Of a stretch of DNA of 32,437 nt, positions 4,579 through 20,362 are shown piece by piece. Within the stretch, counting starts at the first letter, position 1. Each line of letters opens with the position of its first letter. The DNA is from a virus. The notes under the pieces are model-generated. The model was not told the origin of the DNA. It did no database searches and saw only the letters and a list, made by a program, of their open reading frames with translations. The translations under genes were made by a program, and so were the position numbers. The stretch is taken from positions 1-32,437 of the IMG/VR virus record IMGVR_UViG_3300009553_000810; one strand, 5' to 3'.

Positions 4579-5883
4579 TTATACGTCCGCCTGAGCGGCC
4601 TGCTGAGATCGTCGGGTGGCCATGCTGGGTTTGGCCGCGATCGACTGGAGCCGCTCTAGCAGGGGCTGCATCCCCGCCCAGGCTTCGGCGATCGCCGAGG
4701 CCAAACTGGCGTCGCGTACGCGCGTACTCTTGGCATAGGGAAATGTGACGCCAACCGCGAGCTGCAGATTCGATTGCTTCGCCAGGAAGGCTTGGTATGC
4801 CGCACGTAGCCATTCCTCCTGCAGCTTGACCGCAGGATGTCCACCGACGGCGGTGCGTGGATCGAACTCCACCAACGCATCACGCTCGGGAACGCTGCGC
4901 TGGCTTGCGTAGCGCCGCTGCTGGACGATCACAATCGGGCAGATGCCCGAATCGCTCGCCATCAGCGGTGCCAGCGCCTTTACGCACTCCGTGAGCATGT
5001 GTTTGAACGCGACGAATCCACCGGCGAGAACCGCCTGCCGCAGCGGTCCGAGTAAATCATTAGGCAAGGTGATCTGCGCGATCAGACGGTCTCGCTGTAG
5101 CGAAACCGTGGCATGGGGAAACTTGGTGAAGGCTGCACCCGGCGCCGCCACCGAAAGCGGCAAAAAGTCCCAGACGCTGTCGGCGCCTTCGGTGATCGCC
5201 GGGCGCCCGATTCCCGACCGGTCGATGCCGACTGCATCGAGGGAACGATCGGAGCGCAGCGCTGCCATCATCAGGCGCAGCAGGCGCTTGCCTTCGAGGT
5301 AGGTATAGGGATGGTCCGGTCCAAATGGAATGCCGGTAAAGGTGGTCAAGGTACCCTCCAAGAGATAGCCGTCGTCGACCATGCGTTGCTCGGCGATCGG
5401 GAAGTAGGAAACGAGGTGGCGTGCCCAGGCGCTGCCGCGTTCGGCAGCAGCCCACTGATAGAGATCGGACCAGCGCCGATGCAGGCAGCGGTCGGGCAGG
5501 GCGCGCGAGGGTGAGAGCGGCGACAGCACCAGCAGCTGCGTCGACGAGAACCCGCGCCGCTCGGCGATGGCAAGGTGGCCGCGCAGCTGGGCCGCGTCGA
5601 TCGGCGAGGCGATCTTCGATTCGATCAGAAGGGCCCAGCCGGACTCGGAGTAGATCCAGGCATCGGGCAGACGCCGCTTGACCAGTTCTGATGTCTCACG
5701 CCGTTCCTCGGCATCGCCCGGCAGCCGCTGCTCGACCACCTGCAGGCGCTCGCCCCGCGGTGGCGAGACACCCAGCCAGCGGAGGAAGGTAGCGAGAAGA
5801 GCGGGGTCTTCGGCCAGACAGCACACCAAGGCGTGCGTCAGGCGGTTTTCCGGGTGGACGTATTGATCGAACAGCGCGCGCAT
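4579..5883 (-). CDS. PD-(D/E)XK nuclease-superfamily protein (PDDEXK_4-like)
   Basis: This 434-residue protein begins with FDQYVHPENRLTHALV, an N-terminus I associate with PD-(D/E)XK superfamily proteins of the PDDEXK_4 type. At residues about 72-92 it has LPDAW, a short hairpin, then LLIESKI. Asp followed by Glu-x-Lys is the catalytic pattern of the fold. The remainder has no motif I recognise. There is no signal peptide, so it acts in the cytoplasm. The start is fixed by the family N-terminus; no Shine-Dalgarno is visible, so a very short or leaderless transcript is possible. A near-perfect 28-bp palindrome begins 7 bases upstream, and the divergent gene encodes a C-protein-like regulator, pointing to restriction-type control. 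No methyltransferase is adjacent. A defence role is inference. Confidence 0.8.
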   Translation of the reverse strand: MRALFDQYVHPENRLTHALVCCLAEDPALLATFLRWLGVSPPRGERLQVVEQRLPGDAEERRETSELVKRRLPDAWIYSESGWALLIESKIASPIDAAQLRGHLAIAERRGFSSTQLLVLSPLSPSRALPDRCLHRRWSDLYQWAAAERGSAWARHLVSYFPIAEQRMVDDGYLLEGTLTTFTGIPFGPDHPYTYLEGKRLLRLMMAALRSDRSLDAVGIDRSGIGRPAITEGADSVWDFLPLSVAAPGAAFTKFPHATVSLQRDRLIAQITLPNDLLGPLRQAVLAGGFVAFKHMLTECVKALAPLMASDSGICPIVIVQQRRYASQRSVPERDALVEFDPRTAVGGHPAVKLQEEWLRAAYQAFLAKQSNLQLAVGVTFPYAKSTRVRDASLASAIAEAWAGMQPLLERLQSIAAKPSMATRRSQQAAQADV

Positions 5884-8593: not shown

Positions 8594-10360
8594 ATGGCTG
8601 TCTACATATCAGAGCTGGATGTACTAAATTTTCGGTCGTGTGTGTCTACTAGCCTACAGTTGACCAATTTCACTCCGCTGGTTGGGTTGAACAACTGCGG
8701 AAAGAGCAATTGCCTCACGGCATTGCAATGGTTAATCCGGAAAGCGAAGTTGGGCGTCGAGGACTTCCATGACCCAAATCGGCTTGTTCAGGTGACGGGA
8801 ACACTGGTTGGCATCTCCAACGCAGATTTGGGTGTCTTAGAGCCCAAACATCGGAGAAAGATTGAGCCGCACGTGCGGGATGGCATTCTCCGTGTTAGGC
8901 GTGTGCAAGAGGTACCAGGTGGTGAGGTGACGTTGACTGTCTGGGATCCGAACACCCGTGAATGGAATCCCAACCCTACTGGGATCGACAACGCCATTGC
9001 GGCACTGTTCCCCGACCCCATTCGCATCGGGGCAATGGAGAACGCTGAAGAGGACGCCAGTAAAGCTAAGACGACCACCACAATCGGCAAACTGTTGGCT
9101 TCAATGCTGACGGCAATCCAGGAGCAACACGAGCAGGCCTTGACCCCGCACCTGACCGCCATCTTGGGGATGGTTTCGGCCGAAGGTGGGGAGCGCTTCG
9201 AAGAGCTGGATCGCATCGACGACTCGATTAACCGCAAAATCTCCGATCTGTTCCCTGGCATTCGCATCAAGCTCGATTTCCCTGTTCCCATTTTCAACGA
9301 TCTGATCAAGGCGGGGACGGTCAAGGTTTACGAGGGCGACGGGCAAGGGCGTTCCTTCGGCTCCTACGGCCACGGGGCGCAACGCGCGATCCAGATGGCC
9401 ATGGTGAGGCACTTGGCGGACTTGAAGCGGGGGGAGGCAGCGGCGGGTGGGGTCACCTTGCTATTGGTCGATGAGCCTGAGCTGTTCATGCATCCTTTCG
9501 CAGTGGAGCAGGTGCGCGAAGCGCTACGTGCCTTGTCCGCGGCTGGGTATCAGGTTGTGTTTTCGACCCATTCTGCTCAGATGATTCTCGCTAAGGACGC
9601 CAAGAACGCTCTGCTGATCGCGAAGAAACATCCTGAAGGGACCAAAGCACGGCCACACTTGCTGTCGATCGTTGAGCAGTTGGTCAAAAACCCCACCCAT
9701 CAACTCCATCAGCTCTTCAGCCTGACGAATTCCTCCCAAATTTTGTTTGCCGACAAGGTCGTTCTCACCGAGGGGAAAACGGAACTACGTCTATTGCCGT
9801 CCATATTCCAGGTAGTTACTGGCAAGACCTTGGGGCAGGCATCGCTGGCGATCGTTGCAATGAGCGGGGTGTCTGACACTCGGAAGTCAATGGAAGTGCT
9901 GTCTGCTCTCGGTCTGCCAGCGTGCGCCATTGTGGATCTCGATTTTGCATTCCGCCAAGCCACTAAGCACGGCTTCTTGCGGGCGGATGATCCGGACATC
10001 GCTGCGTGCAAGGCTGTCTTCGCTAGGTTGGCCAACGATGGTCTTGTTTCTCTCGATGGGGGGTGGCCTCGTAAAGGTGTCCAGGGGTCGGCGGCCAACG
10101 CCTTCGAGTTGCTCGCGGCCGAGAACGAGGCAAAGCCGCATATCGCTGCATTAGTTCAGAAGTTGCGCGACCAGAACGTTTGGCTTTGGGGCGCCGGTGC
10201 CATCGAATCTCACCTCGGTCTTTCCGAAAAAACGGAGCATGCTTGGCTGTCCTTCCAAGTTCGATTGGAGAGCGAACCGCTGGATGACTTCTGCACGGAT
10301 GCCGTAGGCATCCGCTCGTTGGTGGAATGGTTGGACGCTGCACCTCTGGCGACCGAGTAA
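8594..10360 (+). CDS. OLD-family ATP-dependent nuclease (ABC ATPase + TOPRIM), class 1-like
   Basis: This 588-residue protein is close to the length of phage P2 Old. The ABC/SMC-like ATPase has Walker A GLNNCGKS (31-38), the signature SYGHGAQR (257-264), Walker B LLLVDEPE (about 289-296) and the H-loop FSTHS with His326. The C-terminal TOPRIM nuclease has Glu393 in VVLTEGKTE and the Asp448-x-Asp450 pair in AIVDLD, so metal binding looks intact. OLD proteins cut DNA in phage defence. GajA (Gabija) is a relative with a UvrD-like partner, and no helicase or reverse transcriptase gene is adjacent here, so class 1 or stand-alone OLD is the best call. The start is supported by the typical N-terminus (ISELDVLNFRSC) although the best AAGGAA signal lies 15 bases upstream. 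Confidence 0.93.
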   Translation: MAVYISELDVLNFRSCVSTSLQLTNFTPLVGLNNCGKSNCLTALQWLIRKAKLGVEDFHDPNRLVQVTGTLVGISNADLGVLEPKHRRKIEPHVRDGILRVRRVQEVPGGEVTLTVWDPNTREWNPNPTGIDNAIAALFPDPIRIGAMENAEEDASKAKTTTTIGKLLASMLTAIQEQHEQALTPHLTAILGMVSAEGGERFEELDRIDDSINRKISDLFPGIRIKLDFPVPIFNDLIKAGTVKVYEGDGQGRSFGSYGHGAQRAIQMAMVRHLADLKRGEAAAGGVTLLLVDEPELFMHPFAVEQVREALRALSAAGYQVVFSTHSAQMILAKDAKNALLIAKKHPEGTKARPHLLSIVEQLVKNPTHQLHQLFSLTNSSQILFADKVVLTEGKTELRLLPSIFQVVTGKTLGQASLAIVAMSGVSDTRKSMEVLSALGLPACAIVDLDFAFRQATKHGFLRADDPDIAACKAVFARLANDGLVSLDGGWPRKGVQGSAANAFELLAAENEAKPHIAALVQKLRDQNVWLWGAGAIESHLGLSEKTEHAWLSFQVRLESEPLDDFCTDAVGIRSLVEWLDAAPLATE

Positions 10361-10840: not shown

Positions 10841-11627
10841 TGACCTGCCCCCGTTCTTCAGTGCCACGGTAATCTAAGTATGGTCCGTCAGACGAAGAGG
10901 ACGGACATGAAGAAGCGATACACCGACGGGCAGATCATCGGCTTTCTGAAGCAGGCGGCCGAGGGAGTGCCGATCAAAGAGCTATGCCGCCAGCACGGTT
11001 TCAGCGATGCCTCGTTCTAACTATGGCGCCGTCGGTTCGGCGGCATGGATGTGCCCGATGCGAAGTAGCTGTGCGAGCTGGGAGCGGAGAACGCCAAGCC
11101 GAAGAAGCTGCTGGCCGAAGCGATGCTGGACGCGGCCGCGTTGGGGTGGTGGCGCGGGGAAATTCTGAGCCCGCAGGCGGGCCGCGACGCGGTTGCTGCC
11201 ATGCGGGCGAAGACGAATCTCTCCGAACGCCGTGCGTGTGCTTTGATCTGCCTGTCGCGCACGGCGCTGCATTACCGGGTGCAGCCAACGGACGACACGC
11301 TGCACGCCGTTTGATCGAGTTGGCGAGTGAGCGTCGTCGCTTCGGCTATCGGCACCTGCATACGTCGCTCGAGCGCGAGGGATTCGAGGCCAACCACAAG
11401 CGCGTGCATCGGCTGTATCGGTTGGCGGGTTTGGCGGTTCGCCGTCGGCGCAAGCGCGATCGCGTCGCTATGGAGCGCCGACCGCTGCAGGTGCCGCCCG
11501 GCCCAACCATACCTGGTCGATGGACTTCGTCTTCGATGCACTTGCGAATCGCCGACCGATCAAGTGCCTGACGGTGATCGATGACTATATGAAGAAGGAG
11601 GTCGAAATCCTCGTGATGCCGGCATGA
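10841..11627 (+). mobile_element. Remnant of an IS3-family (IS407-group-like) element
   Basis: The left terminus starts TGACCTGCCCCCGTT at 10841, a typical left end of this IS group, followed 66 bases later by orfA. The right part of orfB and the right inverted repeat are missing. The insertion interrupts the AraC-type gene at its left side; the right boundary is only the last recognisable transposase codon, near 11627. The element cannot transpose. Confidence 0.75.
10907..11627 (+). pseudogene. Decayed IS3-family transposase (orfA + truncated orfB)
   Basis: orfA begins MKKRYTDGQIIGFLKQ, then IKELCRQHGFSDASF, followed by TAA where Tyr is expected, then LWRRRFGGMDVPDAK and a second stop, then a leucine-zipper-like ENAKPKKLLAEAMLD. 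orfB follows with ILSPQAGRDAVAAMRAKT, LSERRACALICLSRTALHYR, a frameshift near 11310, RLIELASERRRFGYRHLH, NHKRVHRLYR, and a further shift before WSMDFVFDALANRR and IKCLTVIDDY. The first catalytic Asp region of the DDE integrase core is present; the rest is gone. Several stops and shifts show long decay. Confidence 0.8.
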
Positions 11628-11790
11628 GCCGACCGTCCGTCCAAAGTTGCCCGATGTGGGCGCGAGTTCGGCAACGCGCGAACCACGCGGCTCACCGGTT
11701 TTAGGAGCCGCCGCACCATTGCCGGGAACGCCAAAGTAGGGTGTTTCGAAGTGCCTTCAAGGGAGGGGTGAACGAGCCGTCGAAAGATAT

Positions 11791-11804
11791 AGAACATTTG
11801 TTCT
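11791..11804. promoter_or_regulatory. LexA-type operator (GAAC-N4-GTTC) of the LexA-domain gene
   Basis: AGAACATTTGTTCT contains GAAC (11792-11795) and GTTC (11800-11803) with a 4-base spacer, the form of Gram-positive-type LexA boxes. It is 24 bases upstream of a gene whose first 65 codons encode a LexA-type DNA-binding domain. A possible -10 (TACATT, 11815-11820) is close to the ATG at 11829 and no Shine-Dalgarno is visible, so transcription may be leaderless with the operator over the promoter. Confidence 0.6.
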
Positions 11805-11828
11805 CTATTCATGGTACATTAGTCCTCC

Positions 11829-14800
11829 ATGAACATTCCGCGCGACCGTAGCCAGAAAATTCTCGCGTTCATCCAGCTCCGAATCGAGGCCGATGGGCGT
11901 CCTCCTACTCTTGAAGAGATCGCCAATGCCTGCGGGTTCAAGTCCCGGAGCGCGGTGCAGAAACACGTGCGGGCATTGGGAGCCAGCGGTGAGCTGCGGG
12001 TAACCCCGGGGCGTGCCCGTAGCGCCAGGCCCAAGCGCGCAAAGGAACAGGCGGCCGGCGCGACGACCTTCTTCGAGGTCGCCTCCAGCGACATCCAAGA
12101 CCTGACTGACGCCGATCTGCGCGCCCTCGTAGCCCGTCTGTGCGCCGCAGGCCTAGCGGACGCGGGACTTCCTTCGACCTGTGTGATCTGGGGCGGCGAC
12201 CAGCGAGCTCCTGATGGCGGGATCGACGTACGGGTCAAGACCGAGCCGAATGCCGGGTTGCCGTCTCCGTTGAATCGCGGAGCTGTCGGGATTCAGGTGA
12301 AAGCGACGCGGATGCCCGCCAACGAGATCCAGCGCGAGATGTGCCCCGGCGGGGTCCTGCGACCCTCGATTCACGATCTGATCCGCGCGCGGGGTGCCTA
12401 CCTCATCGCCGCTTCTGACCTTGTGGCCGACGAGGAGTACCGCCGTCGCGTCGAGGCCATGAAGGTCGCCGCATCCGTTCCCGAGTCGTCCGCGGCGATC
12501 TTCGATTACTACGACGCCCGCCGCCTGGCCGACTGGACCAATCAGCACCCCGGCGTCGTAGCTTGGGTCCGTAGCCGGCTGGGTCGCCCGCTCCAGGGCT
12601 GGCAGCCCTACGCTGCATGGGCGAATCCGGCAGGGGGCCATGCGGCGTTCTTTGCCGATGAAAAGCTACGGGTAGCCGACCCGCTGGATCCCGAGAACAA
12701 GATTTCGCTCGTCGACGGCTTGGGGCAGGTCCGTCGCACGCTGCGCAGCGCAGGGCATTCCGTGCGGCTGACGGGCCTGTCGGGCGTTGGCAAGACGCGT
12801 TTTGCACAGGCGCTGTTCGAGGAGTCCGCCGCCCCGGATGCACTGCCGGCGGAGCTCGCGGTCTATACCGACACCGCCCATAGCCCCACACCGTCGCCCA
12901 CTGCGGTGCTCGACGAGCTGCTGGCTGCACGCCGACGGGCCATTCTCATCGTCGACAACTGCGGCACTCAGCTGCACAACCAGCTCAGTGCGCGCTGCAA
13001 GACCTCCGACCGTGTGAGCCTGCTCACGATCGAATATGACATTCGCGAGGAGCTCGCTAACGAGACCAACGTGTTCCGCTTGGAAGCCGGATCGGACGAG
13101 CTGATCGAGAGCCTCCTCGAGCAGCGGTTTCCGCACATCTCCCAGGTTAACCAGCGCACCATTGCGCGTTTTGCCGACGGCAACTCGCGCGTGGCTATCG
13201 CCTTGGCCCACACGATGGAGCGACACGACTCATTGGCCGGGCTTAAGGACGACGATCTGTTCGACCGTCTGTTCTGGCTCGGCAAGGAAGTCAACCCGGA
13301 GCTCAAGGTCGCTGCCGAGGTCTGTTCGCTTGTTTACTCCTTTGATGTCGAGGAGATGGAGGGCGATCTCGTTCAGCTCGGCGCTCTAGCCGACCTCAAG
13401 GCGCTCCCCTTGTATCGGCATGTCGCAGATCTCGAGGAGCGTGGGCTCGCACAGCGCCGCGGTCCATGGCGCGCCATCCTGCCCCATGCCGTCGCTAATC
13501 GACTCGCGGCCCGCGCGCTGGCTTCGATCCCGGCGGGGCGAGTCAAAAAGCATCTGATCGAGGGCTCCGAACGCCTCTGGAAATCTTTTTCTCGGCGTTT
13601 GGGCTATCTGCACAAGTCGCCAGGGGCGGTTGCGATCGCGCGCAGCTGGTTGGCTCCCGGCGGGCTGCTCGGCGATTTGAGCGAACTCACGGCGCCGCAG
13701 CAGGAGGTGTTGGCTAACATTGCGCCGATTGATCCGGCATCCACACTCGAGGCGATCCAGCGCACCGCCGACGGGCCGCAGGGTGAGCAGGTATTCACCT
13801 TAAGCTCGTTCACTCGCTCGCGTCTGGTCGAGATCCTCCGTCTCATCGCATTCGATCCGGCACTATTTGATGCTTGTATCCGACTGTTGGTCCGATTCGC
13901 CGTGGCCGAACCTTCGGACAATCGGAGCAACCCGACGCGTAGCGTCATCAACTCGCTCTTCCAGATCCACCTATCCGGAACCCATGCGTCCACCGACCAA
14001 CGTGCGGGGAGTGTTAAGGCACTTCTTGGGTCGAGCAATGCGGACATCTGCGCCATCGGCCTGGATGCGCTGTCCGCGGCGCTGGAATGCCACCACCTTA
14101 CCTCGCACTACGGGTTCGAATTCGGTGCACGCGTCCGCGATTACGGCGCATACCCTCGGGGAGCCGACGCGCGGAAGTGGTTCGCCACATTCATTGATGT
14201 CGCGGTCGATACGGCCATCAGCAGCGGGCCGATGGCCCAAGGGGCGCGCAACGTGCTCGGACGGCACTTTCGATCGCTATGGGCGGTAGCGGGCGTGCTA
14301 GACCCGCTGGAGGCGGCAACGGCTGCACTGCTTCCGGGCGGCTGGGAGCGCGGATGGCTCGCAATCCGCCAGACGCTGGGCTTCGATGGAAAGAAGGGGC
14401 TGTCTGCAGAATCGCACACGCGCCTCATGCGCCTCGAGATTCTCGCGCGTCCGCGTACGCTGGCGTCTCAGGTGAAGGCAGTTGTGTTGAATAACCACTT
14501 CGCAGGTGTGGACTACGCGGATGGTGAATCGCCGAGCCATAGTTATGAGCGTGCCGATCGTCGCGCGCGCCAGCTTGGCGAGCTCGTCGCAGTCGATGAG
14601 GCGGTATTCACACAGATCATCCCCCTCGTGGTAGCCAACGTGCAGGGCCGCCAATGGCACTTCGGCGAAGGTTTGGCTGCCACCACGCCATCGCTCGAAG
14701 CCTGCTGGTCCGCGCTGGTTGCCGCCTTGGAAGCGTTGCCTTCGAAAGACCGCAACGTGCAGGTGCTTCGTGGGTTCCTGCGCGCGACCTCCGAGCGCGA

Positions 14801-15851
14801 TCGGGACCTGTTCAACCGGTTTCTCGACGAGAGCATGGTTCGCCCGACGCTTGTGGAATGGGCACCCGTCCTCCAACTCAGCGCTACGCTGGACGATCGG
14901 GGTTGCAGCCGCCTGCTGGCGTCGATGAACGATCCTAACGTTCCCGCATGGGTCTTCCGTTACTTGGCGTACGGCAGCGTAACGGATCCGGTGCCCGAGG
15001 AGCGGCTGGTAGAAATGCTGAACCTGCTGAGCATCAAGCCCGGAGGGCTGGCGATCGCGATCGACATCCTTCACATGCACATCTATAGCGAGCTCAAGCC
15101 CGTGGGACCCGAGCTGACGGCGTGTGCCCGGACGCTTATCGCGAGGGCGCCTCTGGAGCGCGACGACCATGGTCTGGACCACGCACTCGGCCAGCTCATC
15201 AAACGTTTCCTCGCGGGGCCCGAGGCGGAGATTGCCACTCGCCGACTCCTTGAGCGTATCTGTGAGGCGATCGACAGCTACGCCGTCTCGCGGTACGACT
15301 TCAACGAAACCCTCAAGGCGCTGTTCGCGGAGCAACCCACACTCGCCCTAAACGCACTGATCGGCGATGAGAACTTGGACGAGGCGGAGGATCAGTCGGT
15401 CGGCTACATTCGGCGCGATGCGCTGGCCGGCGGCCGGCGCTCGGGCGCTCTCCTTTCCATTTCCGAGGAGGCGTTGCTGGATTGGTGCCGCACCGGTAGC
15501 GGTCCGGAGCGGTGGCTGCGAATCGCCCCCTTGCTTCCGGCATTCGATTCTCCGGCCGCCGATGCGCCGCTGGAGTGGTCGAGTAAGGTAAAGGTGCTGC
15601 TCGCAAATGCGCCCGATCCCGCCGCGGTCGCAGAGACACTTATAGATGTCTTGATACCGACGGGCTGGAGCGGCTCGCGCGCCGACGCAATCCGCCAGCG
15701 TCTGCCGCTGCTCGACCAGCTGGGCGAGATTCTTGGGCCGGATCACGAAAGACAGGTCGCCAACTGGCGGCGCAACGTTATGGAGAGGATCGATCGGGAA
15801 GCACGACGCGAGCTTGAGAATCATCGGTGGCGCAACGAACGATTCGAGTAA
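11829..15851 (+). CDS. LexA-type wHTH / PD-(D/E)XK-like nuclease / STAND-like NTPase fusion
   Basis: The protein has 1340 residues and four visible parts. Residues 1-65 are a LexA-type winged helix: QKILAFIQLRIEADGRPPT, EEIANACGFKSRSAVQKHV, then RALGASGELRVTPG. Residues about 90-250 look like a PD-(D/E)XK nuclease of the Mrr/QxK kind: Asp129-Gly-Gly-Ile-Asp133, then GIQVKA with Gln156 and Lys158. Residues about 295-480 are a P-loop NTPase with Walker A GLSGVGKT (316-323) and Walker B ILIVD (372-376), like STAND ATPases. The remaining 850 residues are helical and probably sense a target, as in Avs proteins. There is no LexA peptidase domain. The start is set by the LexA-domain N-terminus and lacks a Shine-Dalgarno. 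The domain-matched operator lies just upstream. A role in phage defence is inference from architecture and neighbourhood. Confidence 0.85.
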   Translation: MNIPRDRSQKILAFIQLRIEADGRPPTLEEIANACGFKSRSAVQKHVRALGASGELRVTPGRARSARPKRAKEQAAGATTFFEVASSDIQDLTDADLRALVARLCAAGLADAGLPSTCVIWGGDQRAPDGGIDVRVKTEPNAGLPSPLNRGAVGIQVKATRMPANEIQREMCPGGVLRPSIHDLIRARGAYLIAASDLVADEEYRRRVEAMKVAASVPESSAAIFDYYDARRLADWTNQHPGVVAWVRSRLGRPLQGWQPYAAWANPAGGHAAFFADEKLRVADPLDPENKISLVDGLGQVRRTLRSAGHSVRLTGLSGVGKTRFAQALFEESAAPDALPAELAVYTDTAHSPTPSPTAVLDELLAARRRAILIVDNCGTQLHNQLSARCKTSDRVSLLTIEYDIREELANETNVFRLEAGSDELIESLLEQRFPHISQVNQRTIARFADGNSRVAIALAHTMERHDSLAGLKDDDLFDRLFWLGKEVNPELKVAAEVCSLVYSFDVEEMEGDLVQLGALADLKALPLYRHVADLEERGLAQRRGPWRAILPHAVANRLAARALASIPAGRVKKHLIEGSERLWKSFSRRLGYLHKSPGAVAIARSWLAPGGLLGDLSELTAPQQEVLANIAPIDPASTLEAIQRTADGPQGEQVFTLSSFTRSRLVEILRLIAFDPALFDACIRLLVRFAVAEPSDNRSNPTRSVINSLFQIHLSGTHASTDQRAGSVKALLGSSNADICAIGLDALSAALECHHLTSHYGFEFGARVRDYGAYPRGADARKWFATFIDVAVDTAISSGPMAQGARNVLGRHFRSLWAVAGVLDPLEAATAALLPGGWERGWLAIRQTLGFDGKKGLSAESHTRLMRLEILARPRTLASQVKAVVLNNHFAGVDYADGESPSHSYERADRRARQLGELVAVDEAVFTQIIPLVVANVQGRQWHFGEGLAATTPSLEACWSALVAALEALPSKDRNVQVLRGFLRATSERDRDLFNRFLDESMVRPTLVEWAPVLQLSATLDDRGCSRLLASMNDPNVPAWVFRYLAYGSVTDPVPEERLVEMLNLLSIKPGGLAIAIDILHMHIYSELKPVGPELTACARTLIARAPLERDDHGLDHALGQLIKRFLAGPEAEIATRRLLERICEAIDSYAVSRYDFNETLKALFAEQPTLALNALIGDENLDEAEDQSVGYIRRDALAGGRRSGALLSISEEALLDWCRTGSGPERWLRIAPLLPAFDSPAADAPLEWSSKVKVLLANAPDPAAVAETLIDVLIPTGWSGSRADAIRQRLPLLDQLGEILGPDHERQVANWRRNVMERIDREARRELENHRWRNERFE

Positions 15852-16353: not shown

Positions 16354-16515
16354 GGTATCGCGCTCCTTTGATCGCCTGTGATGGCACGAGTTACCATTGA
16401 CGCTCTGGTTGCCGCTCGAAGCCAGCCCTGTCTCGAATTGGGGGTCTCGTGTCGAAACAGTGGCTTCCGAGCCGTAACAGAGCGTCAATGTCGCCGGACT
16501 TTCTGGAGTACCGGC

Positions 16516-16974
16516 ATGGCGCGCGCCCGACTACCCGCACTGGATCAACTTGCTCAACTAGGCTTCGATGAGCTTAAACGGTCGTGGGCCTCCGTGTTCG
16601 TCGGGGCGCCACCCTCACGGATGCCACGTGACTTCTTGGTAAAACTCTTGGCTCAGGGGCTCCAGGAGCGAGGCGCTGGCGGTATTCCCAAAGCGCTCGA
16701 ACGCGCCCTTGGCAAGCCCTGCAGTAGCGGTGGGAAGGTGTCGTCGAGTGAGTCTCCGGACAACCTGACCCTCGGCACGAGGCTGATCCGGTCATGGGGC
16801 GACGCAAACCACGAAGTCATCGTTATCGAGAGTGGCTTTGCATACCGGGGTAAGTCGTATCGGAGCCTGAGCGAGATCGCCCGTGAGATCACCGGGGCTC
16901 GCTGGTCGGGGCCTCGTTTCTTCGGGATCAAACGAGGGGAGCGAGCTGGACACTCCTTGGAGAAGCAGGCATGA
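16516..16974 (+). CDS. DUF2924 protein, partner of the serine recombinase
   Basis: The 152-residue product has the DUF2924 pattern: an N-terminal helical part (ALDQLAQLGFDELKRSWASV, then PPSRMPRDFLVKLLAQGLQE) and a C-terminal module with GTRLIRSW, VIVIESGFAYRGKSYRSLSE and IAREITGARWSGPRFFGI. ATG 16516 is chosen over a longer frame because it starts the conserved part and has GGAG in front. Its stop overlaps the ATG of the recombinase (ATGA), so translation is coupled. DUF2924 proteins are frequently found beside large serine recombinases in proteobacterial elements; their role is probably accessory to recombination but is not established. Confidence 0.88.
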   Translation: MARARLPALDQLAQLGFDELKRSWASVFVGAPPSRMPRDFLVKLLAQGLQERGAGGIPKALERALGKPCSSGGKVSSSESPDNLTLGTRLIRSWGDANHEVIVIESGFAYRGKSYRSLSEIAREITGARWSGPRFFGIKRGERAGHSLEKQA

Positions 16975-18635
16975 ACGCATCTCGCCGCTGCGCGATCTAC
17001 ACCCGCAAGTCGTCGGAGGAAGGGCTCGATCAGAGCTTCAACTCCCTCGACGCCCAGCGTGAAGCCTGTGCTGCCTACATCCTGAGTCAGCGTCATGAGG
17101 GCTGGAAGTTAGTTGCCGACCACTATGACGACGGTGGCTACTCTGGGGGCACCCTCGAACGTCCAGCGCTCCAGAAGCTCCTGGCGGCCATCGCGTCCGG
17201 AACGATCGACTTGATCCTGGTCTACAAGGTTGACCGCCTGACACGAGCGTTGAGCGACTTTGCCAAGCTGGTCGAGCTGTTCGATCGACACAAGGTGTCG
17301 TTCGTTTCGGTGACCCAGGCGTTCAACACGACGACCTCCATGGGACGGCTAACCCTGAACGTCCTGCTGTCCTTCGCCCAATTCGAGCGCGAGGTCACGG
17401 GCGAGCGGATCCGCGACAAGATCGCGGCTTCGAAGAAGAAAGGTATGTGGATGGGCGGGCTGGTACCGCTGGGCTACGACCCGGATGGAAGAACCCTCAA
17501 GGTCAATCCCACTGAAGCCGAGCAAGTCCGAGAGACCTTCCGCCGGTACCTGGAGCTGGGATCGGTCTCACAGCTTCGCAATGTGCTTCGAGCCGAGGGC
17601 GTGCGCAGTAAGCGAAGGAAAACTGCGACCGGTGGCAGCTATGGCGGCTGCTCGCTTACCAGTGGCGCGCTTTTCAAGATCCTGACGAATCCGATCTACC
17701 GGGGCGAGATCGCGCATCGAGGCGAGCGATATCCAGGGCAGCATGAGGCGATAGTACCGGAGGAATTGTGGAATCAAGTTCAGGCGCACCGTGAGCGTAC
17801 TCGACGGGCTAAGTCGACATTACCGAAGGCGCAGGCGAAGTATCCCTTGCTCGGCCTACTGACTGATAAGCAGGGAAAGAGTTACAAGCCGGTCCATACC
17901 ACCAAGAGACATCGGCGTTACCGGTACTACGTTGCAAAGACCGATCTGACGGCAACGCCAGGTGCTCGCTATCCCGCGGATGAGCTGGAACAACACATTG
18001 GCGAACGCCTGAGCATCTTCTTCGCACGATCCAAGGCGATCGTTGACGCCGTCCTAGAGCCCGACGACTCCGCAGCCGCGCTGAAGTCAGCGGTGAATCA
18101 AGCAACAAGGCTCGAGGCCCGGACGGGAGAGTTCAACTGGGGCTCGTGGCGGACTCTCGTAGCAGGGATCGTGATTGGCAATCAAGAACTGAAGATCAAG
18201 ATTGATCGGCGGGCACTGCGGAGCGAGCTGGGCCTGATGGCCACTGAGGACGCCGAAGCGACGATCGAGCTTGTTCAGCCCATGCGGCTCCGCCGGACCA
18301 GCTACGAGATCCGCTTGGTGATCCCCACGGTCATGGCGCCCTATGAAGCTGGGCAGCGCAATGAATCGCTCATCCGTTTTCTGGCGAGAGGCCGGCGTTG
18401 GTACCGCCAGATTACGAGCGGCGAAATGCCGTCGATCCAGGATATCGCCAAGGCCGAGAATGTCACCGAGCGGTATGTTGCCCGAGTGCTTCGAGGCTCA
18501 CTACTAGCTCCAGAACTAATGCAGCGCATCCTGGACGGTCGCCAACCCGTTGGTATGACCGTCCGGCAGCTCCTTGATCCGCCACCACTGAATTGGGACG
18601 ACCAGCGACGGCATTTCGGACTTGATCCGGCCTAA
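16971..18635 (+). CDS. Large serine recombinase
   Basis: The 554-residue protein is a site-specific recombinase of the resolvase/invertase superfamily. The catalytic N-terminal domain begins CAIYTRKSSEEGLDQSFNSL with nucleophile Ser14. It continues with VADHYDDGGYSGGTLERPAL, LILVYKVDRLTRALSDFAKL and SFAQFEREVTGERIRDK, all standard motifs. A 'Recombinase' domain follows (RGEIAHRGERYPGQHEAIVP, then EELW), and the zinc-ribbon region is reduced. The C-terminal part ends in an HTH-like segment (IQDIAKAENVTERYVARVLR). No truncation is visible. Together with DUF2924 it probably belongs to the mobile unit that carried the left-hand island, though no matching attachment pair is visible. Confidence 0.93.
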   Translation: MNASRRCAIYTRKSSEEGLDQSFNSLDAQREACAAYILSQRHEGWKLVADHYDDGGYSGGTLERPALQKLLAAIASGTIDLILVYKVDRLTRALSDFAKLVELFDRHKVSFVSVTQAFNTTTSMGRLTLNVLLSFAQFEREVTGERIRDKIAASKKKGMWMGGLVPLGYDPDGRTLKVNPTEAEQVRETFRRYLELGSVSQLRNVLRAEGVRSKRRKTATGGSYGGCSLTSGALFKILTNPIYRGEIAHRGERYPGQHEAIVPEELWNQVQAHRERTRRAKSTLPKAQAKYPLLGLLTDKQGKSYKPVHTTKRHRRYRYYVAKTDLTATPGARYPADELEQHIGERLSIFFARSKAIVDAVLEPDDSAAALKSAVNQATRLEARTGEFNWGSWRTLVAGIVIGNQELKIKIDRRALRSELGLMATEDAEATIELVQPMRLRRTSYEIRLVIPTVMAPYEAGQRNESLIRFLARGRRWYRQITSGEMPSIQDIAKAENVTERYVARVLRGSLLAPELMQRILDGRQPVGMTVRQLLDPPPLNWDDQRRHFGLDPA

Positions 18636-18791
18636 GACTCCGTGGCGGGCGCGTAGCCGGAAAAAACGCGAGTTCGGTCGAGCAATTCTGCAGAACGACT
18701 CCGAACTCCTGCGAAGTGCCGCGAGAGACGCCGCCCCAAATTCGCCCGATCAGGCCCTAAACGACAATTCCGCAGTTCGCCTCAGAAACAA

Positions 18792-18817
18792 AAAAGCGCG
18801 CCATATGGCGCGCTTTT
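18792..18817. terminator. Strong hairpin terminator
   Basis: AAAAGCGCGCCAT (18792-18804) and ATGGCGCGCTTTT (18805-18817) form a perfect 26-base palindrome with an A-run on one side and a T-run on the other, so it can work on both strands. It lies about 160 bases after the recombinase stop and just before the tRNA fragment. Confidence 0.8.
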
Positions 18818-18857
18818 CGGCTTTCACAGAGACCCGAACTCACAAGGTCAGTCTGCG

Positions 18858-18918
18858 TGGCGGAGAGGGTGGGATTCGAACCCACGTTACGGCATAACCG
18901 TAAACCGGATTTCGAATC
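18858..18918 (-). other. 3' part of tRNA-Ser (CGA), integration attachment site
   Basis: On the minus strand the sequence ends in CCTCTCC-G-CCA, preceded by the T arm GTGGG-TTCGAAT-CCCAC and a long variable arm (TTACGG, CCGTAA) typical of class II tRNA-Ser. Farther upstream is an anticodon loop TTCGAAA (anticodon CGA) with its 3' stem TCCGG. The 5' half of the tRNA is absent; beyond about 18918 the sequence is unrelated. It is therefore the crossover core of an element inserted in a serine tRNA gene, not a working tRNA. The integrase starts 170 bases to the right. Confidence 0.75.
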
Positions 18919-18944
18919 CTTTTACCGCTGTATACGGCCGTCTA

Positions 18945-19059
18945 CGGGTGACCCCGCACTTGCGCCAGATAGCGCGCTGTGGCAACGTCTGCGCCGTCCG
19001 GTCAAGCCACGCACATCCCGTATACCTACGGAACCGCCGGTGACCCCCGGGTGACCCCG
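18945..19059. repeat. Direct repeats beside the attachment core (possible integrase arm sites)
   Basis: CGGGTGACCCCG occurs at 18945-18956 and again at 19048-19059, with a near copy CCGGTGACCCCC ending at 19049. Each group is preceded by GTATAC plus CTACGG. Repeats of this size between the tRNA core and the integrase start are where arm-type integrase sites are expected. Confidence 0.45.
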
Positions 19060-19087
19060 TTGTCTGACGCCGTGTGCACCGGATTTC

Positions 19088-20362
19088 ATGAAACGTATCT
19101 CCTTCCATCGCAAGACACTCGACGCGCTGCCGCTGCCGCGCGTTGGTGTGCGAGAGGAATACCAGGATGCCGACGCACCGGAACTGATCCTGCGCGTCAG
19201 CTCGACGGGGCAGAAAACGTTCGCCCTGCGTCGGAAGATCGACGGCAAGGCGGTGCGCGTGACGCTGGGCACGTACATGCGGGCTGGCGCCACCGAGCCC
19301 GACATGACCGTTGCGCAAGCGCGCAAGGCGGCGGGTAAGGCGAAGACTGCGGCGGCTGATGGAAAGAACCCGAACGACATCAAGCAGGCGCGTCGTGTCG
19401 AAGGGCTCACGCTGCGTGCGGCGCTCAAGGCCTACGTCGAGGATTCGAACAGGTTGAAGGAAAGTACCGCTGCGGGCTATGCGGCGATCCTGCAGGAAGT
19501 CGTGCCGGACTGGATGGATCGCCCTTTGCGCGAGACGACCGAGGAACAGGTGCTTGCCCGACTCAAGCGTCACGGGCAGCGATCGAAGGCGAGGGCGAAT
19601 GCTGCCATGCGCGTTGTGCGCCTGCTCTGGAACTACGCCCGCACGTTCAACGTGAAAAACGCGCCACCGGTCTACGGCGACAATCCTGTGTCAATCCTTT
19701 CATCGCGTAACGCCTGGTTCCGCGTCGAGCGTCGCCGCACTCGCATCAAGGACGACAAGCTGCCGGCGTGGTGGTCAGGCGTCACTGCGCTACGGGATTC
19801 GAAGCTGCCGGCAGCGGCCGATGCCGCGGACCTCTTCACCCTGATGCTATTCACTGGACTACGGCCGATCGAAGCGTGCGCGCTTGAGTGGCGCTACGTG
19901 GATCTCCACGAAAAGACGATCGAGATTCCCGATCCGAAGAACCGCGAGGCGCACTCGCTGCCGCTACCTGCCGTGCTGGTCGACCTGTTCAAGGCTCGCC
20001 ACAAGGAGAAGGCGTCAACGTTCGTCTTCCCGTCAACCAGCGATCCGAAGTTGCCCTTCAAGAAGCCGACGCTGCACAAGTTCGTGCGCGTACTGAAAGA
20101 CGAAACCGGCGTCGAGTTCACGCCATACGATTTGCGCCGCGGATTTGCGACGGTCGCGGAGTCCATGGATATCAGCGCGCTCGCGGTAAAGCGCCTGCTG
20201 AATCACCGAATCGCGGAAGCAGACGTCACCGCTGGCTATGTCGGCCGCGACCCGCGCCGACTTGCTGACGCAATGGAACGTATCGCCACCAAGATCACCG
20301 AGATTGCTACAGCGACGACCGACAACGTCGTCGAGCTCAAGATTCCGGCGAAAGTCGGGTAA
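19088..20362 (+). CDS. int: Tyrosine recombinase integrase (P4-type)
   Basis: The 424-residue integrase has a DUF4102-like N-terminal domain (LILRVSSTGQKTFALRRKID), an SAM-like core-binding domain near residues 105-200, and the catalytic domain. Catalytic residues visible are Arg259 (TGLRPIEACAL), Arg350 (YDLRRGFAT), His373 (LLNHR) and Tyr384 (VTAGYV). The first His of the usual HxxR motif is replaced by Tyr347. It reads away from the adjacent tRNA-Ser fragment, its probable target. Length is normal for the family and the gene looks intact. Confidence 0.94.
   Translation: MKRISFHRKTLDALPLPRVGVREEYQDADAPELILRVSSTGQKTFALRRKIDGKAVRVTLGTYMRAGATEPDMTVAQARKAAGKAKTAAADGKNPNDIKQARRVEGLTLRAALKAYVEDSNRLKESTAAGYAAILQEVVPDWMDRPLRETTEEQVLARLKRHGQRSKARANAAMRVVRLLWNYARTFNVKNAPPVYGDNPVSILSSRNAWFRVERRRTRIKDDKLPAWWSGVTALRDSKLPAAADAADLFTLMLFTGLRPIEACALEWRYVDLHEKTIEIPDPKNREAHSLPLPAVLVDLFKARHKEKASTFVFPSTSDPKLPFKKPTLHKFVRVLKDETGVEFTPYDLRRGFATVAESMDISALAVKRLLNHRIAEADVTAGYVGRDPRRLADAMERIATKITEIATATTDNVVELKIPAKVG

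Follow-up and report, generated by a model that had tools for sequence, protein, structure and literature searches.

Why would a predicted immune effector carry the DNA-binding domain of a repressor at its N-terminus? How toxic immune proteins stay quiet is an open question, and the regulators known from the literature consulted are separate genes. The window studied here (the whole stretch of DNA analyzed, 32,437 nucleotides) is a viral record with terminase, integrase, primase, and tail genes. A first-pass annotation had proposed that one of its genes joins a LexA-type winged helix, a PD-(D/E)XK-like nuclease, and a STAND-like NTPase, followed by a long helical C-terminal part. All of these parts lie in a single intact reading frame, arranged as follows.

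11829..15851, + strand: LexA-wHTH::PD-Lambda-4_A fusion gene, an intact ORF encoding 1340 aa
11844..12020, + strand: LexA-type winged helix-turn-helix (wHTH), residues 6-64 (Pfam, PDB sequence matches, purifying selection)
12021..12077, + strand: variable linker, residues 65-83 (AlphaFold model and relatives; residues 60-79 of low confidence)
12078..12611, + strand: predicted Mrr/DUF4365-like PD-(D/E)XK nuclease domain, residues 84-261, with D133, Q156, and K158 (conservation, predicted topology, profile comparison)
12612..13523, + strand: predicted STAND NTPase core, residues 262-565 (motifs, AlphaFold model, Foldseek, VIA)
12774-12797, + strand: Walker A, GLSGVGKT, residues 316-323 (ORF translation)
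12942-12956, + strand: Walker B, ILIVD, residues 372-376 (ORF translation)
13524..15848, + strand: C-terminal alpha-solenoid, the presumed sensor, residues 566-1340 (predicted structure and structural matches)

The winged-helix match at the N-terminus is real: Pfam LexA_DNA_bind (PF01726) matches residues 6-64 above its cut-off (E 4.6e-13), and LexA repressors match residues 6-74 in a PDB sequence search (best E 1.1e-10). Peptidase_S24 has no Pfam match in the fusion protein, and a model of full-length LexA scores 42.7 bits, far under its cut-off of 110.95 bits. Thus, the protein is not a LexA, but is LexA-derived at its N-terminus only. The PD-Lambda-4_A profile and most relatives begin at residue 79-83, at the end of the LexA-like part. 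Modeled by AlphaFold, residues 1-640 (pLDDT 85) form a small helical wHTH, a linker, a nuclease-like domain, and a P-loop NTPase; at residues 60-79 the pLDDT falls to 31-34, and the linker is probably flexible.

A PD-(D/E)XK nuclease domain of the Mrr/DUF4365 kind is predicted on weaker evidence than the other parts. The motifs picked out at first reading (D129-G-G-x-D133 and Q156-x-K158) are conserved in 70 aligned relatives, with D129, D133, Q156, K158, and also E170 invariant. The family profile aligns these motifs with those of Mrr_cat (E 2.8e-4, against 0.2 or more for column-shuffled controls), and the alpha-beta-beta-beta-alpha-beta order of the AlphaFold model is compatible with a PD-(D/E)XK fold. 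Pfam DUF4365 matches weakly in 7 of 51 members, rising above its cut-off once, in a fused relative, with neighboring sequence. Against PDB sequences, the nuclease profile gave chance matches only. The structural match lists are filled by the ATPase domain, and a missing nuclease match there carries no meaning.

In the predicted structure, both Walker motifs lie within a STAND/NLR fold, and on this combination we assign the NTPase to the STAND class. The top PDB matches to the 1-640 model in Foldseek are the STAND/NLR proteins 6mfv, Apaf-1, CED-4, and Avs4. VIA gives a Z of 11.2 to STAND 6mfv over 296 residues at an rmsd of 8.4, with AAA+ proteins scoring similarly. Residues 560-1340 are modeled as an all-helical solenoid (pLDDT 90) with importin/HEAT-like structural matches, in keeping with the helical C-terminus that had been described.

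The bulk of this protein belongs to a described system. Residues 81-1340 match PADLOC PD-Lambda-4_A (PDLC03991) with an E of 6e-295 over profile positions 3-1283 of 1283, that is, with full-length homology; the LexA wHTH and the operator described below are extra in the fusion. The PD systems were reported by Vassallo et al. 2022 (PMC9519451), who found the PD-lambda ones by functional selection in E. coli. The suffix “_A” suggests a partner gene, but the neighbors scanned have no PADLOC match to one. The first-pass annotation had compared the protein with Avs-type systems. At E 10 or better, PADLOC returns PD-Lambda-4_A models only and no Avs profile. By profile, the protein comes from another sequence family than Avs4/Avs5 and, further, has an N-terminal repressor domain, while sharing with them the nuclease (effector)-STAND-solenoid plan common to Avs; 8dgf (Foldseek rank 6) and 9jap are among the structural matches, and the likeness is in fold only. 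The first-pass annotation also knew of no described system with this domain order. This holds for the LexA extension, which is confined to one clade; the rest is PD-Lambda-4. The fusion therefore extends a described system within one clade and is not new as a whole. An incomplete literature search found no description of a repressor domain fused into a defense protein or of a LexA-STAND fusion in defense.

How widespread is this extension? About 100 usable relatives, drawn from plasmids, genome contigs, and viral contigs, were searched for copies with all parts in one ORF, and the LexA domain was present in 8 of 100: the window, Frateuria, Dyella, a Paraburkholderia MAG, an Acidovorax MAG, Pseudoxanthomonas, X. 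prunicola, and an X. campestris plasmid. A screen of whole families (233, 395, and 398 genomes) turned up LexA-less copies and no further fused ones. Phage records contained no homologue; a viral scan with the single protein returned nothing, and alignment-based viral scans returned LexA-less copies only. In a tree of residues 81-640, the eight fused members and one LexA-less member, L020, form one clade (100/100). Because L020 nests inside the fused clade, one gain and one loss make the simplest history, and L020 probably lost its LexA domain; its upstream region has neither an operator box nor a LexA remnant. Where it was retained, the domain is under purifying selection, with dN/dS of about 0.1 or less where measurable (about 0.1 between the window and Frateuria) and zero replacement changes at a pS of 0.36 between the LexA parts of Pseudoxanthomonas and X. 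prunicola. On the X. campestris CN13 plasmid (L001, 6001-10010), the gene is frameshifted in one of two assemblies, and the start chosen in RefSeq excludes the LexA domain. The fusion is thus easily overlooked in annotation.

The retained domain has a matching candidate target directly ahead of its own gene.

11790..11805, + strand: putative operator box 1, TAGAACATTTGTTCTC, with 1 mismatch to GAGNACANNTGTNCTC; its position is conserved in relatives
11812..11827, + strand: putative operator box 2, TGGTACATTAGTCCTC, degenerate, with 3 mismatches; its 22-bp register is common to L017, L018, L019, and L022

The window promoter reads AGAACATTTGTTCT. Apart from box 1, every site in the window has at least 3 mismatches to GAGNACANNTGTNCTC. 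This 16-bp palindrome occurs with at most one mismatch within 250 bp upstream of all eight fused loci, and with up to two mismatches upstream of none of the 92 LexA-less loci. The association of domain with operator has a Fisher p of 5e-12, or of 1e-9 after two of the three Xanthomonas-type copies are dropped, in a statistic that ignores phylogeny; as the eight loci are one clade, the link amounts to about one gain and one loss rather than eight independent events. A second box is present in six of the eight fused loci, with a start-to-start distance of 22 bp in five and 23 bp in Pseudoxanthomonas, and the weaker of the two boxes often carries 2-3 mismatches. Box 2 ends one base ahead of the ATG in 7 of 8 fused loci, including the window, and it is strong in all 7 relatives. 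Across six divergent promoters, it averages 1.67 bits per column, compared with roughly 0.3-0.5 far upstream; promoter conservation is restricted to the boxes. Box 2 may contain a -10 element, TACATT (11815-11820), from which transcription would be leaderless; no promoter passed a strict sigma-70 scan.

In five of six host genomes, the exact GAGNACANNTGTNCTC pattern occurs once, each time at the fused gene. The sixth has no exact pattern, its box carrying 1 mismatch. A viral scan for the operator beside an ATG returned four unrelated short ORFs, and the box alone is therefore not diagnostic in metagenomic DNA. The lexA1 boxes in L106 and L109 (about position 1500; Xanthomonas and Pseudoxanthomonas), TTAGTAGTAATACTACTAA with a one-base variant in L109, end 2 bp before the ATG; start-adjacent operators are thus common for LexA in this group.

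Both the domain and its box point to LexA2. A stricter form of the palindrome, GAGTACANNTGTACTC, is found in 6 of 233 Rhodanobacteraceae genomes, once in each. One of these sites belongs to the Frateuria fused gene, and the other five each immediately precede a lexA2-type gene. Identity between the fused domains and these LexA2 proteins reaches 74%, and the 16-bp box immediately ahead of the start codon is common to both. The recognition helix is (F/L)ASR(S/G)xARKHV in the five LexA2 proteins and (F/L/V)xSRSAx(Q/R)KHV in the fusions. Boxes of other LexA types are TTAGTAGTAATACTACTAA, GTGTACAAATGTACAC, GGTATAAATATTTATACC, and TTCACCTATTTAGGTGAA, of which GTGTACAAATGTACAC is the related box of X. 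prunicola LexA2. Given the operator match and the near-identical recognition helices, it appears that the gene gained the LexA2 DNA-binding domain jointly with its operator. In P. putida, the lexA2-imuABC cassette is under LexA2 control, and lexA2-imuA-imuB-dnaE2 cassettes with a LexA2 repressor have been reviewed (PMC3901139). In Pseudoxanthomonas (L177, 1300-12835), the fused gene and a 553-aa gene lie in convergent orientation immediately after a lexA2-(imuA region)-imuB-dnaE2 cassette, the 553-aa gene, of unknown family, separating the fused gene from the cassette. The LexA2 of this cassette has a different box, so the arrangement hints at a location without establishing the donor. Apart from the 553-aa gene in the Xanthomonas group, no neighbor is conserved across the fused loci.

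Taken at the level of sequence, these observations argue well for the self-repression that the first-pass annotation had suggested. We consider it probable that this is a PD-lambda-4-type NLR-like protein with a captured LexA2 DNA-binding domain and operator, which lowers its own transcription; negative autoregulation of a single-protein NLR-like nuclease is its most likely function. In one lineage, the 5' end of a PD-lambda-4-type gene would have gained both elements. The wHTH would bind the two palindromes over the promoter beside the start codon, and the resulting autorepression would keep a potentially toxic nuclease scarce and buffer its amount whenever mobile elements transfer the gene. 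We infer DNA binding, repression, and defense activity for the fusion protein alike. Unlike LexA2, it has no self-cleaving S24 part, and so RecA-triggered cleavage cannot lift repression and RecA-dependent inactivation is not expected; relief would have to come from dilution, a conformational change of the protein itself, or competition at the promoter. Affinity may be low without the C-terminal dimerization domain of LexA, unless STAND oligomerization or DNA binding itself supplies the dimer. The degenerate box 2 of the window and the empty strict sigma-70 scan also count against this reading.

Target sensing might also govern the promoter: the solenoid would sense phage, the NTPase would oligomerize, and operator occupancy would change, so that the promoter is either released (positive feedback) or shut by higher avidity (limiting self-damage). 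One chain does hold sensor, NTPase, and DNA-binding domain, and one oligomer could bridge two operators about two helical turns apart. On the other hand, the linker is variable, poorly predicted, and probably flexible, such that coupling is not required and plain concentration-dependent autorepression is also allowed. We regard such gating as possible, but doubtful.

It is less probable still that a host LexA or LexA2 recognizes the operator, the gene being simply SOS-inducible and the fused wHTH secondary. The identity of the box with that of lexA2-type genes in five Rhodanobacteraceae genomes would suit this explanation, as would the related box of X. prunicola. Yet the host lexA promoters have boxes of other sequence, and the exact pattern is private to the fused gene; control by host LexA is therefore unlikely in the hosts examined, some of which are drafts or MAGs that limit this inference. 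Further, LexA-less relatives lack the box, and in the draft genome of Dyella tabacisoli (G002, locus L108) the fused gene encodes the sole clear LexA-type DNA-binding domain above threshold, the other match being marginal and MarR-like. Could the wHTH instead be a targeting or sensing module that steers the nuclease to particular DNA, and no repressor at all? It does adjoin the nuclease domain, but the gene's own promoter is the sole exact genomic target in five hosts, and relatives without the wHTH keep nuclease and sensor intact; we hold this to be very improbable. That a lexA fragment was joined to a defense gene by faulty assembly or annotation, as a viral and possibly metagenomic record might invite, is hardly credible, being already contradicted by the same fusion in isolate genomes of Frateuria, Dyella, Pseudoxanthomonas, and Xanthomonas and on a plasmid, and by a LexA-domain dN/dS of about 0.1.

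The surroundings of the gene are consistent with a defense cargo region. An OLD-family nuclease and IS3-like remnants flank it on one side, and DUF2924 and a serine recombinase on the other.

4579-5883, - strand: 434-aa ORF matching nothing in Pfam or PHROGs and perhaps not a true gene
8594-10360: OLD-family ATPase-TOPRIM nuclease (PADLOC Old, E 3e-233)
10984-11600: decayed IS3-like transposase fragments, HTH_21 spanning 10984-11571, immediately ahead of the operator region
16378-20362: DUF2924 gene, large serine recombinase, and tyrosine integrase (19088-20362), in that order

The OLD-family gene is likely a second defense gene near the fusion. Two mobile elements may meet at 16378-20362; primase/helicase, small terminase, and tape-measure genes lie beyond the tyrosine integrase.

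In MalT-like STAND transcription regulators, a STAND NTPase and a helix-turn-helix also share one chain, the latter serving as an activator output, and there is no nuclease. The DNA-binding domain of the fusion differs in being LexA-type, N-terminal, beside a predicted nuclease, and apparently aimed at its own gene. Its inferred role in transcriptional repression is shared with CapW/BrxR, CapH+CapP, CapK+CapS, RptR, and CdxB, which repress immune or immune-like operons (PMC9122601, PMC9122589, PMC13373217, PMC12255303, PMC13236601). The first three are responsive to DNA damage (PMC13373217), and CdxB represses the NLR-like LypABC in trans, overexpression of lypABC being toxic (PMC13236601). 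All of these repressors are separate proteins, whereas in the fusion the repressor domain lies within the effector/sensor chain.

This gene combines a predicted immune effector with its own repressor domain and a matching predicted operator, both apparently from the SOS system, and it ties NLR-like immunity to the evolution of LexA. As a compact autoregulated module, it would be mobile as one gene, and its exact binding site is predicted. A one-protein immune switch, in which phage sensing leads through an oligomeric change to altered occupancy of the protein's own promoter, is a tentative and rather unlikely extension. If true, detection, nuclease attack, and transcriptional feedback would be the work of one molecule, and where a host LexA2 recognizes the same box, this switch would also cross-talk with SOS mutagenesis.
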